A stretch of 64,000 nt of DNA. Origin: Desulfatitalea sp. BRH_c12 (GTDB lineage: Bacteria; Desulfobacterota; Desulfobacteria; Desulfobacterales; Desulfosarcinaceae). This document shows, one piece after another, positions 6,606-58,719 of the stretch (position 1 is its first letter; every line of letters starts with the position of its first letter). A program made the position numbers and the translations under genes. The notes under the pieces are model-generated. The model was not told where the DNA came from, searched no databases, and saw only the letters and a list, made by a program, of their open reading frames with translations. Location: the NCBI GenBank assembly GCA_000961655.1, contig LADR01000029.1:124001-188000 (forward strand). The letters run 5' to 3'.

Positions 6606-6620
6606 AGGTGATTTGTCATC

Positions 6621-6704
6621 TTTCGGGTTTCAAACCCCGGCGATCCGGGATCCGCGTCGAATGCCATTTTATTTATTCAACTTTCGGGTTCCAAACGCCG
6701 GTGA
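6621..6704. repeat. Two solo ends of palindromic repeat family A
   Basis: Two tandem copies of the terminal motif TTTCGGGTTYCAAAC-CCGG, at 6621-6645 and 6676-6704. The second is identical over 29 bases to 9830-9858 and nearly identical to the end of the full element at 58648-58676 on the other strand. They fill the short gap between the exported protein and the glycosyltransferase-like gene. Confidence 0.8.
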
Positions 6705-6731
6705 CCCCACACCAGCTTTTGAACAGTCGCC

Positions 6732-9817: not shown

Positions 9818-11011
9818 TTAGATCAGGTTTTCAACTTTCGGGTTCCAAACGCCGGTGATATCGTGAAATGCTTTCATCCCCATGTTTGCAGAATCAAAAC
9901 GCTCGATGATTTTGAGGATTGTTTGGGTGGTATGCGCCTTTTCGTAGGGATTGCGGGTGGTGGCCATCACCTGTGCAAACGAGGGCGACAGTGCGGTACG
10001 CAGTGCCCGCCCAACAGCGCTGCGCTCGGCACGGCAATGGATGACCGCATCACAAGACGCTCTGCCCTTCTGACGATCCCCCACGTTGATGCATGGAATG
10101 CGCAGGCTGGGTGCTTCCACGATCCCAGAAGAGGAGTTACCGACGACGCACCGGGCGTATTTCAATAAACTGAGATAGCGTATTTGCCCCAGGGAAGCGT
10201 ACGCCCGCGAGGTTTGCGCATGGGAGGCCACGTAGGTCTCTATCATGGCGTTGATGGCGCGTCCTCCCGCATCGGCATTGCTTTTCGTAAATATGCAAAA
10301 AAGGCCGGAATCTTCCAGGGCCGCCAGTATTTCTCCGAAATCTTTTTGGATATCGGTTTTCTCGGCAGTCTCAGGGTGGCAGGTGATCAACGCATAGTGA
10401 TCCACCGCAGGGCAATTGATCCGGTCAAACAGCTCCACTTTGCTCAGCAACGGCAACGTGTGGATATTTTCCACCCCGATGGCCCCGACATTGAATACTC
10501 TTTCAGGCGCTTCGCCCAATTGAATCACACGGTTTCGATACGCTTCGGTGGCCGTGAAATGGATAAGGCTCATTTTGGTGATCGCGTGCCGAAATGCATC
10601 ATCGATGGCTCCCAGCGTTATTTCGCCGCCATAGAGGTGCGCAATGGGAATACGCAGGACGGTCGCGGCCAGGGCGGCTGCCACGGCCTCGTAGCGGTCG
10701 CCGAGCAACAGAAGCATATCCGGCTTCAAACGTTCCTGCGCTTCGGCATATCCAATGATGCCCAGTCCCATGCTCTTGGCGACACCGAGGGGGGAATCGG
10801 AACTTAACACCACCTCCACTTTTTCCGATATCGTGAACCCATCCGCCTCGATCTCCTTGTAGGTAAAACCGAACTCTGGCGACAGATGGGTCCCGCTGAC
10901 GATCACCTGCAAATCCAGTTCAACATCGTCGGCAATGCCCTCCATCAATGGCTTGAGCAGACCATATTCGGCACGGGTGCCCGTAAACACGCACACTTTT
11001 TTCATCGCCAT
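9818..11011 (-). CDS. legG: UDP/GDP-sugar hydrolysing 2-epimerase (LegG/NeuC)
   Basis: A 397-residue hydrolysing 2-epimerase that releases the nucleotide and inverts C2 to give the 6-deoxy mannose-type precursor of legionaminic acid. Family motifs are 'VFTGTRAEYGLLKPLMEGI', 'LLLGDRYEAVAAALAA' and 'HLYGGEITLGAIDDAFRHAI'. It overlaps legI by 10 bases. The last dozen residues ('DITGVWNPKVENLI') are encoded by a solo copy of repeat family A (9830-9858), so the C terminus appears to have been altered by repeat insertion. The initiator could be Met1 or Met3. Confidence 0.88.
   Translation of the reverse strand: MAMKKVCVFTGTRAEYGLLKPLMEGIADDVELDLQVIVSGTHLSPEFGFTYKEIEADGFTISEKVEVVLSSDSPLGVAKSMGLGIIGYAEAQERLKPDMLLLLGDRYEAVAAALAATVLRIPIAHLYGGEITLGAIDDAFRHAITKMSLIHFTATEAYRNRVIQLGEAPERVFNVGAIGVENIHTLPLLSKVELFDRINCPAVDHYALITCHPETAEKTDIQKDFGEILAALEDSGLFCIFTKSNADAGGRAINAMIETYVASHAQTSRAYASLGQIRYLSLLKYARCVVGNSSSGIVEAPSLRIPCINVGDRQKGRASCDAVIHCRAERSAVGRALRTALSPSFAQVMATTRNPYEKAHTTQTILKIIERFDSANMGMKAFHDITGVWNPKVENLI
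9830..9858. repeat. Solo end of repeat family A inside legG 3' end
   Basis: A 29-base block identical to 6676-6704 and nearly identical to the outer arm of the full palindrome at 58648-58676 (opposite strand). It lies inside the legG reading frame and supplies its C-terminal codons up to near the stop. Confidence 0.85.
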
Positions 11012-12018: not shown

Positions 12019-13262
12019 TTCGGAACCAAAAAAGGACTGCTGGGTATATTGATAAGGCATTTTTGCAATCTCTCGCTCATGTCCAATGACATGCGTTGAC
12101 AGTGTTGATACATCGGCAATTCATGCATCAATTGCCACACCGGGCGGGTAGCGATTCCGCATTGATGGGTCGCTTCCAGAATGTCTTCGATGTCATGCTC
12201 CTTTTCCGGGGCAAGCAAAAGTGCATTCAGCCAATAATTGCTGCGGGCAAACGCCGGTTCCCTAAATACCGTTACCCCGTCGATTCCGGAAAAAGCGTCG
12301 GCGTAAATCGCCGCCAACGTGCGCTTCTTCTGCAGAAGGCCATCGATTTTTTCTAATTGCGCGCAGCCGACAGCGGCATTGATATTGGGCATCCGGTAAT
12401 TGAAGCCAACCCGGTCGTGGTAGTAGCGGAATCGATGCGGGACTTTTGCGGTGGTGCTCAAATAACGCATGGTCTGGGCCAGGTCGGAATCATCGGTAAT
12501 AATGGCGCCGCCCCCGCCGGTCGTGATCGTTTTGTTGCCATTGAAACTGAAAATTCCGCAGCGACCAAACCGGCCTGTATGCACGTTTTTGTACATGCTG
12601 CCGAGCGCTTCCGCAGCATCCTCGATCATCACCAGGTTGTAGCGTTGACAGATATCCAGCAAGGAATCCAGATCCGCAGGGTGGCCGAATGTGTGCATCG
12701 GAATCAGGGCGGCGATGCGTCTGCCGCTTGCACGGTTGTAACAATCGGTACCGCGCATAACTGCGACGTCGCGCAGGTAGGCGTCAAGCTTGACAGGATC
12801 CACGCCCATGGTCTTTGGTTCGGCATCCACAAAATGGGGAATCGCATTCAGATAGCTGATGGCATTGGCGGTCGCCACGAAAGTCAGGGCGGGCACGAGG
12901 ACTTCGTCTTGCGGCCGAACACCTGTGGCCACCAATGACAAGTGCAATGCGGCGGTGCCGTTGACCACGGCGACAGCATGCCTGGCACCGGTGAATTCAG
13001 CCAGCATGTCTTCGAATCGGTCTACGAATTTTCCGACATAGGAAACGTAGGTCGATTGAATACACTGCCCCAGATAGGTGATCTCATTGCCTTCAAAGCG
13101 GGGTTCATGAAGTCCTACAGCGCCGCTGGACAGGGGCAGCAATCTCTTCAGTATCGCGACAATTTTTTGCGCAAGCAGGCTGTGGCCATCTGTCGATGTT
13201 GCGGACTCCTGCGCTGGCCTGTCGGCCGCGCTCGCGCCGCATGCAAAGCTATTTAGGTTCAT
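11973..13262 (-). CDS. legC: Aminotransferase LegC (DegT/DnrJ/EryC1 family)
   Basis: A PLP-dependent aminotransferase that converts the 4-keto-6-deoxy sugar nucleotide made by LegB to its 4-amino form. Motifs include 'VAVVNGTAALHLSLVATGV', 'MIEDAAEALGS' and the PLP-lysine region 'FSFNGNKTITTGGGGAI'. The start at 13262 follows GGAAGG. The longer frame would add residues encoded by the adjacent repeat. The C terminus runs about 45 bases past the likely legI start; the family usually ends near 'INIPSS', so the last ~17 residues are an unusual tail. Confidence 0.9.
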   Translation of the reverse strand: MNLNSFACGASAADRPAQESATSTDGHSLLAQKIVAILKRLLPLSSGAVGLHEPRFEGNEITYLGQCIQSTYVSYVGKFVDRFEDMLAEFTGARHAVAVVNGTAALHLSLVATGVRPQDEVLVPALTFVATANAISYLNAIPHFVDAEPKTMGVDPVKLDAYLRDVAVMRGTDCYNRASGRRIAALIPMHTFGHPADLDSLLDICQRYNLVMIEDAAEALGSMYKNVHTGRFGRCGIFSFNGNKTITTGGGGAIITDDSDLAQTMRYLSTTAKVPHRFRYYHDRVGFNYRMPNINAAVGCAQLEKIDGLLQKKRTLAAIYADAFSGIDGVTVFREPAFARSNYWLNALLLAPEKEHDIEDILEATHQCGIATRPVWQLMHELPMYQHCQRMSLDMSERLQKCLINIPSSPFLVPKCHKGSPSTLLPKPV

Positions 13263-13270
13263 AATCCAAC

Positions 13271-13494
13271 CTTCCGGTTCCAACGCCGGTGATCCGGGCG
13301 GGTGGTCCGGCGCCACACGCCATTTCGCTCAACTAAGGCTAAAGGTGTGCGTAGGGTCAGGCCGCAAACTCGCTGGCGCTCAAACAGTGCGGCCCAAACA
13401 ACCCTACGCACACCTTAAGCCTCACTAAATCTCATAACTGACTGGGGCGCGGACCCGCCCGGATCACCTCACTACGTGCCAATCCCGAAACTTG
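13271..13494. repeat. Full-length palindromic repeat A, copy 1
   Basis: A ~225-bp near-palindrome filling the legB-legC gap. The outer arms begin CTTCCGGTTCCAACGCC and end GTGCCAATCCCGAAAC. The inner arms are AAGGTGTGCGTAGGG and its complement around 13343-13425, with the loop 'CTGGCGCTCAAACAG'. Copy 2 at 58446-58676 matches along its whole length in the opposite orientation. No open frame lies inside. As RNA it could fold into a long interrupted hairpin within the operon transcript. Confidence 0.88.
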
Positions 13495-13497
13495 AGC

Positions 13498-14514
13498 TCA
13501 TAAGGTATAGCCATTCGGTTTGTACATTTTCATGTTTTCTTTGCGCGAAAACCATTCAATCGTTCGTTCCAATCCCTTACGAAGGCCTGCATTGCCCGAA
13601 AAAGCGGGTTCCCAGTTGACAAGGCGCTTGGCTTTGGAGGCGTCGGCGCACAGTCGCTCGACTTCGCTTTTGGTCGGTCTCAAACGCTGGGCTTCGACCT
13701 CGATGGGCACCTGTGTGCCCATCATATCCTGGATCAGGCCAATGAGGTCGCCAATGGCGATTTCGTAGCCGCTGCCGATATTGATCACTTCGCCGATGGC
13801 GGCGTCACTTTCCGCAATGGCGACAAACCCGCCGACAGTGTCCTGGACAAAATTGAAATCACGTGTCGGATGGGTTGCCCCGATCCGGATTTTCTTAATG
13901 CCTGCGTTCAACTGGGTGATGATCGTCGGAATAACCGCGCGGGCCGACTGCCGGGGACCGTACGTATTGAAGGGGCGAACGACGGCAATCGGCGTGTCGA
14001 AGGATAAGTGAAAAGACATCGCGATCTGATCCGCACCGATTTTGGATGCAGCGTAGGGCGATTGTCCCTGCAGGGGATGATTCTCGTCAATGGGCACAAA
14101 ACGGGCTGTTCCGTATACTTCGCTGGTGGAGGTATGGATGACTTTTTCCAAGCCTAAGTCCCTGGCGGCCTGAACGATGTTCAACGTTCCCTTGATGTTC
14201 GTATCACAGTAGGTGGCCGGGGAATGATACGAGTAGGGAATCGCTATCAACGCAGCCAGGTGAAAGACCACATCACAGCCCCGCATGGCCTCTCTGACGC
14301 CAAACGGGTCACGCACATCACCTTGGAAAATTTCGAGATTATCCAGAATATCGCTGCCGGCATCGTCGAGCCATCCCCAGGTATTAAAGGCGTTATACAT
14401 GACGAAGGCCCTGACACGATGGCCAGCACGGACCAGCGTTTCGGTCAGATGTGAACCAATGAACCCATCTGCGCCGGTCACCAGAATTTTCTTGGTCTTT
14501 AATGTTTTTACCAT
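13498..14514 (-). CDS. legB: LegB, NAD-dependent 4,6-dehydratase of the legionaminic pathway
   Basis: A short-chain (extended SDR) sugar-nucleotide 4,6-dehydratase of 338 residues. The NAD-binding 'ILVTGADGFIGSHLTETLV' is followed by the LegB-like 'FVMYNAFNTWGWLDD', a catalytic 'SPYAASKIGADQIAMSF' (Y-x3-K) and 'VVRPFNTYGPRQSARAVIP'. It starts the GDP-sugar legionaminic route by making the 4-keto-6-deoxy intermediate. Its ATG overlaps the end of the SQD1-like gene by 7 bases. Its stop lies at the edge of the palindromic repeat, so the last codons may be influenced by the insertion. Confidence 0.9.
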   Translation of the reverse strand: MVKTLKTKKILVTGADGFIGSHLTETLVRAGHRVRAFVMYNAFNTWGWLDDAGSDILDNLEIFQGDVRDPFGVREAMRGCDVVFHLAALIAIPYSYHSPATYCDTNIKGTLNIVQAARDLGLEKVIHTSTSEVYGTARFVPIDENHPLQGQSPYAASKIGADQIAMSFHLSFDTPIAVVRPFNTYGPRQSARAVIPTIITQLNAGIKKIRIGATHPTRDFNFVQDTVGGFVAIAESDAAIGEVINIGSGYEIAIGDLIGLIQDMMGTQVPIEVEAQRLRPTKSEVERLCADASKAKRLVNWEPAFSGNAGLRKGLERTIEWFSRKENMKMYKPNGYTL

Positions 14515-58325: not shown

Positions 58326-58445
58326 ACAACTCATAACAGCACGCTGCCTGCCAAGGTTTACATGCGATTGCCCTGCTCACCGGGCACATTGAGGTTGCGA
58401 GGCCGTTCTTATTCGGATATCATCTTGTTTTGCTAACTTAACTTA

Positions 58446-58676
58446 ACTTTCGGGATTGGCACGCAGTGAGGTGAGCAGGGCGTGTTGTCCGCGCCACAGT
58501 CAGCCGCGAGATTTAGTGAGGCTTAAGGTGTGCGTAGGGTGTTTGGGCCGCACTGTTTGAGCGCCAGCGAGTTTGCGGCCCGACCCTACGAACACCTTTA
58601 GCCTCACTTAAGCGAAATGGCGTGTGGCGCGGACAACCACGCCCTGCTCACCGGCGTTTGGAGCCCGAAAGTTGAA
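58446..58676. repeat. Full-length palindromic repeat A, copy 2
   Basis: A 231-bp near-palindrome. The outer arms are 58446-58497 and 58626-58676 (ACTTTCGGG...CCCGAAAGT). The inner arms are 58515-58555 and 58570-58608 (AGTGAGGCTTAAGGTGTGCG with its complement). The loop has 'GAGCGCCAGCGAG'. It matches 13271-13494 along its length, inverted. Its right end lies 44 bases before tilS. Confidence 0.9.
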
Positions 58677-58719
58677 TAACTTAATTCAATGGCAGACGGC
58701 ACGGAAAGAGTCTTTTCCG

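Follow-up and report, generated by a model that had tools for sequence, protein, structure and literature searches.

A palindromic element of Desulfatitalea sp. BRH_c12 lies inside an operon, between legB and legC, and both genes are intact. The locus raises the questions of what this element is, how it entered the operon, and why part of it is conserved. The window is the whole stretch of DNA analyzed, 64,000 nucleotides of contig LADR01000029.1 (positions 124,001 to 188,000). We identify the window palindrome as a MITE, a non-autonomous DNA transposon, about 232 bp long; this assignment is well supported. Taken as a whole, our explanation is that this MITE carries a structured core that rides in three unrelated end types and is dispensable for movement. 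We consider this explanation likely.

Copies in the window

An earlier note on this DNA had described two full copies in opposite orientation with nested inverted arms. Both were found again, and the arm pairs were measured in each. The pairs in copy 1 are one of 22 nt (95%) and one of 16 nt (100%); those in copy 2 are one of 29 nt (90%) and two of 15 nt (100%). The location given by the earlier limits (13271-13494 and 58446-58676) stands, but the ends were a few bases short and are revised here.

13265..13496, + strand: palindromic element copy 1, full length, subfamily A, between legB and legC
13330..13428, + strand: structured core of copy 1 (model R1, 81 bits, full length)
13365..13388, + strand: central loop region CAAACTCGCTGGCGCTCAAACAGT of copy 1, the most conserved stretch of the element family
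58441..58676, - strand: palindromic element copy 2, full length, subfamily A, between the SRP RNA gene and tilS
58513..58610, - strand: structured core of copy 2 (model R1, 92 bits)
58434..58440, unstranded: target-site duplication TAACTTA, left of copy 2 (direct reading of the sequence)
58677..58683, unstranded: target-site duplication TAACTTA, right of copy 2, exact (direct reading of the sequence)
6615..6705, + strand: truncated remnants of the element, consisting of two solo left ends (6616 and 6677)
9830..9858, + strand: solo left end TTCAACTTTCGGGTTCCAAACGCCGGTGA, at the 3' end of a neuC-like gene

Both copies are about 232 to 235 bp long. They are 87% identical and represent the same element. 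The neighbors of copy 2 are the large SRP RNA gene on one side and tilS on the other. An element of 232 bp can encode 77 amino acids at most, which agrees with the earlier view that it holds no genes. The fold of copy 1 has a z score of -6.6 against dinucleotide shuffles, and that of copy 2 has a z score of -14.3. No shuffle was equally stable.

Two other features of the window were observed. At 9818-9858, an element end encodes residues near the C terminus (ITGVWNPKVENLI) of the neuC-like gene, and the transposon end has been absorbed into the coding sequence. At 58335-58395, the repeat cacgctgcctgccaaggtttacatgcgattgccctg adjoins copy 2; it seems to be present again beside loci L030 and L037 and to form a separate repeat family.

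Ends and target duplications

The window-type element has terminal inverted repeats CTCAACTTTCGGG at both ends. Over 42 end pairs, the flank match was 0.51 to 0.54, compared with 0.31 to 0.32 for mismatched flanks (z about 7), although these statistics do not sharply separate duplication lengths of 6 to 9 bp. The best-resolved copies fit a 7-bp A/T-rich duplication adjoining CTCAAC...GTTGAG. In the complete genome of the relative G039, they are TTATCAT, TAATATA, TAATTGA, GTGATAA, and ATCTACC, with clean repeats among them; in the host, they are TTAATTA, CAAGTAA, AAACTTA, GATATAA, and the TAACTTA of copy 2. Contigs C69 and C47 end in the two halves of one copy, which is flanked by TTAATTA. In many copies, the target duplications have decayed.

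The CTCAACTTTCGGG inverted repeats, together with target duplications of about 7 bp, make the element a MITE. The earlier note had proposed a MITE-like reading and a search for target duplications. The duplications were found, and copy number, inverted-repeat ends, intergenic placement, and size variants support that reading as well.

Insertion between legB and legC

The genes flanking copy 1 are legB (TIGR04180, 514 bits against a cutoff of 475) and legC (TIGR04181, 526 bits against a cutoff of 420). They belong to a legionaminic-acid-type operon. The insertion is bordered by two imperfect duplications.

13258..13264, unstranded: left target-site duplication TTCATAA, which holds the legC start codon on the - strand; six of its seven bases equal those of the right duplication
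13497..13503, unstranded: right target-site duplication CTCATAA, which holds the legB stop codon on the - strand

Read in the coding direction, the end of legB is ...TAT ACC TTA TGA and the first codons of legC are ATG AAC CTA. Both genes are unbroken because the duplicated TCATAA contains the stop codon of one and the start codon of the other. In the simplest history, the target would have spanned the stop/start junction. The insertion would have split an ancestral ATGA overlap of legB and legC, and the duplication would have recreated both codons and kept the frames of the operon. In G030, the legC start lies within the end of legB with no insert; its LegB is 62% identical, so this genome is a distant relative and not a close empty site. 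A target duplication over a stop/start junction is a way for an insertion to enter an operon without gene breakage.

No intrinsic-terminator-like site (a GC-rich stem followed by a T run) was found at 13150-13620, and no sigma-70-like promoter site was found in the insert. At its left end, copy 1 departs from the consensus and thereby gives GGAAGG seven bases before the legC start. GGAAGG could act as a ribosome-binding site for legC, which we offer only as a suggestion.

Copies and derivatives in the host genome

The host genome (6.0 Mb) contained 40 scored places among 255 first-look candidates, at unrelated sites. It contained 41 exact central motifs, and the reversed control contained none. 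Central hairpins number at least 41, plus dozens of shortened derivatives. The earlier note had named a total of only two copies, or recurrence in the same spacers, as evidence against its reading; the genome-wide search retrieved more than two copies, in varied spacers.

The end sequence CTCAACTTTCGNNTT, with one mismatch allowed, was found at 87 sites in the host compared with 16 in the control. Many of these sites form pairs 55 to 280 bp apart without a center. Internally deleted derivatives of about 55 to 140 bp bear their own target duplications. Several contigs of the assembly start or stop inside a copy, as expected since the elements are repeats. By ORF predictions, which are approximate, placement is almost always between genes, and 22 of the 28 insertions classed as intergenic lie between tandem genes. 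A subfamily at loci L019 to L022, L024, and L025 has a second hairpin, GTAGGGGCGACCGGCGGTCGCCC, in place of part of the right arm.

Shape and distribution of the core

The core is an imperfect hairpin of about 95 nt with the loop strands AAACTCGC and GCTCAAACAGT. Of 242 genomes from the order Desulfobacterales, covariance model R1 found it in 44, from 28 genera and often in several copies, though look-alikes may be present among the other-family matches that score about 40 bits, and elements with type C ends (described below) reach only 34 to 39 bits. What these dozens of sulfate reducers have in common is the shape of the core, which is retained even when its sequence and the ends that surround it are entirely different. 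Among 13 distinct cores from eight genomes, 93.8% of cells were paired, and 10 of 16 pairs had changed on both sides. Covariation in this set was 0.481, compared with 0.127 for shuffled and at most 0.059 for slid versions. In alignment A3 (39 matches), double changes occurred at all 26 modeled pairs and covariation was 0.830, compared with 0.207 after shuffling and no more than 0.192 for slid versions. A3 is biased toward the model, to which it was fitted. Core alignment A2 is a composite of hand-chosen segments.

Across families, every stem pair changes, but the loop strands stay almost constant. Variation at the bulged CAA/TAA positions is slight within the genus and G039. Some relatives have a longer hairpin, GCCC-TTCG-GGGC, at the tip of the core. 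The fixed loop strands are therefore most readily understood as an internal loop flanked by two variable stems.

The exact loop motif was found in 10 of 395 genomes of the phylum, with zero control matches. One genome of this phylum, G406 (3.1 Mb), contains 189 exact copies, or roughly one every 16 kb. Named genomes yielded no exact match to the host core, and a second pattern matched Desulfatitalea alkaliphila. In the same-genus genome G003, the locus around the core equals the sequence of Desulfatitalea alkaliphila M08but. No match to the core was found in the plasmids scanned. No Rfam family above the gathering score covers the element, and a relaxed search of four relatives produced nothing on the element beyond matches of miRNA precursors that fell below threshold. 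The loop sequence was not found printed in the literature searched.

Two related observations were made. A one-sided element with a TTTTCTTTG...CAAAGAAAA-type hairpin carries the AAACTCGCTnCGCTCAAACAGT loop (loci L133, L136, L137, L144, L145, L151, L158, L228, L229, and L232). It occurs in other families and in one viral contig, the only viral-contig match. In G467, the loop hairpin is present as a 106-bp direct tandem duplication (L135 and L143).

Exchangeable ends

Three types of ends were found. Type A ends, CTCAACTTTCG, belong to the window copies and G039 and have a duplication of about 7 bp. Type B ends (CTGGTTATCCA or, as also written, CTGGTTATCCACTTCGG) occur in the host and have 10-bp duplications, such as ATAACGATTT, ATACTTCAAT, and ATACTGAAAT. 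Type C ends, GTAACTATTCAGC, occur in G305, G387, and G442, and their flank agreement peaks at 8 bp over eight end pairs only. The IS66-family elements of the host and G039 have identical GTAACTATTCAGC ends and exact 8-bp duplications. Type C is thus an IS66-type MITE.

The host family with 10-bp duplications is an independent MITE that has the core in some copies only; 9 of its 13 resolved type B elements lack it. At locus L021, a type B left end lies directly outside a type A element. This nesting points to capture of the core by nested insertion, and the core has probably passed between end types in this way. In the host, the ends of the type B family, also written CTGGTTATCCACTTCGGTCAAGTGA (e.g., L257 to L286), number 128, compared with 0 in the reversed control.

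Search for an autonomous partner

A DDE transposase acting in trans would recognize the element ends only. The earlier note had proposed a search for a transposase with matching ends. None with CTCAACTTTCG ends was found at the sampled loci near element ends, IS66 genes, or DDE_Tnp_1 genes. In the host, no transposase was recognized between end pairs up to 5 kb apart at more than 60 loci. The ORFs between these pairs appeared by eye to be mechanosensitive-channel-like, outer-membrane-like, and transporter-like and were rejected as partners. No autonomous partner was found at the unpaired ends of G039. A multicopy DDE_Tnp_1 element of that genome has different ends, CTTGGGTTTGA, and was also rejected.

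Role of the core

G039 is a closed genome of 4,455,399 bp. In 400 kb sampled evenly from it, 13 of 16 complete elements were 54 to 99 bp long and lacked the core. These core-less elements have target duplications and occur repeatedly, each time at another site. Genome-wide, G039 contains 352 end sites compared with 40 exact cores. Since core-less elements still move, the ends suffice and the core is dispensable for transposition. Its conservation therefore needs another reason.

The most likely reason, and our best guess, is that the folded single strand (RNA or single-stranded DNA) binds a host or element factor. It is the weakest link of the explanation. We tentatively suggest that the core, whose structure has been retained in many families of Desulfobacterota, is a nucleic-acid module in its own right, either selfish or functional, that spreads through capture by unrelated MITEs and relies on their transposases. 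The fixed internal loop (AAACTC/TCAAACAGT) would then be the putative binding site of a conserved factor. The covariance model and the precise loop motif are a ready means to seek the factor that maintains the core.

Alternative explanations

Hairpin-templated repair can homogenize the arms and so give the look of compensatory change; covariation by itself is thus no proof of selection. The core may be unselected, with arms kept alike by such repair or by template switching and with covariation as a by-product of a plain MITE. Copies within a genome do differ in both arms together (e.g., GGGCGGGTGGTCC compared with GGGCGTGTTGTCC), and shortened derivatives show between-arm deletions. Neutral homogenization predicts, however, that unpaired bases drift at least as much as stems, yet AAACTCGC and GCTCAAACAGT are nearly invariant and the bulged CAA/TAA positions are also retained. 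We regard an unselected core as unlikely. It appears rather improbable that the element is a structural RNA that acts on host mRNA as a regulator, RNase III processing site, or mRNA stabilizer, with mobility secondary. Points in favor of such an RNA are the very stable fold, the conserved and covarying core, and the location mostly between tandem genes. The strand of the core relative to tandem neighbor genes shows no significant preference (6 compared with 8 in the host; 25 compared with 13 elsewhere, P = 0.07), which argues against a simple cis-acting mRNA element while leaving room for a weak effect. The neighbors vary, and no intrinsic-terminator-like or promoter-like site was found in the legB/legC insert. 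Of the structural-RNA alternative in the earlier note, the conserved covarying core holds, but it travels in a mobile element.

A REP/RAYT-type repeat or an integron attC site is extremely improbable, although the element is palindromic, dispersed, and intergenic. Y1 (RAYT) transposition and IntI recombination make no target duplications, and such duplications are present here. The ends loosely fit RYYYAAC/GTTRRRY, but attC was rejected in view of the target duplications. The ends are also without the GTAG tag of REPs (PMC3733652). Intrastrand-triplex repeats were considered for the near mirror-symmetric loop and rejected; the part of PMC4666352 available to us contains no matching motif.

Comparison with known systems

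Correia elements/NEMIS and ERIC-type palindromes are, like the window element, gene-less, located between genes, and able to form a strong hairpin in the transcript. To our knowledge, they have other ends and other target duplications, and we know of no common core. GTAG/CGTC REP repeats are also dispersed intergenic palindromes, found in many phyla, but they are 20 to 40 bp long, carry a tetranucleotide tag, use a Y1 transposase, and make no target duplication (PMC3733652). IS66-family MITEs resemble the core relatives in G305, G387, and G442. The GTAA ends and 8-bp duplication of that family were not found in the window copies, which have CTCAACTTTCGGG ends and duplications of about 7 bp.

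Membership in the Chunjie MITE family of Geobacter uraniireducens is doubtful; the kind of element would then be already described. Both hosts belong to the former Deltaproteobacteria, as is generally known. Chunjie is 235 bp long and has 38 copies of 178 to 235 bp with terminal inverted repeats and direct repeats, one of them in an operon, according to the part of PMC10969869 available to us. It is the closest system by description, since the window element is of equal size and has shortened copies, inverted repeats, direct repeats, and an operon copy. The likeness noted here is one of description, and the same part of PMC10969869 mentions no structured core common to several genera. The part of the Desulfococcus multivorans genome paper available to us (PMC5109826) makes no mention of these elements.

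A structure-conserved core common to unrelated MITE families is new relative to the sources searched. The interior of a MITE is usually treated as residual sequence. In this element, it is the interior that is conserved, and the transposon ends can be exchanged. This pattern suggests either a passenger module that persists for a selective reason of its own or a family of structured elements not yet described.
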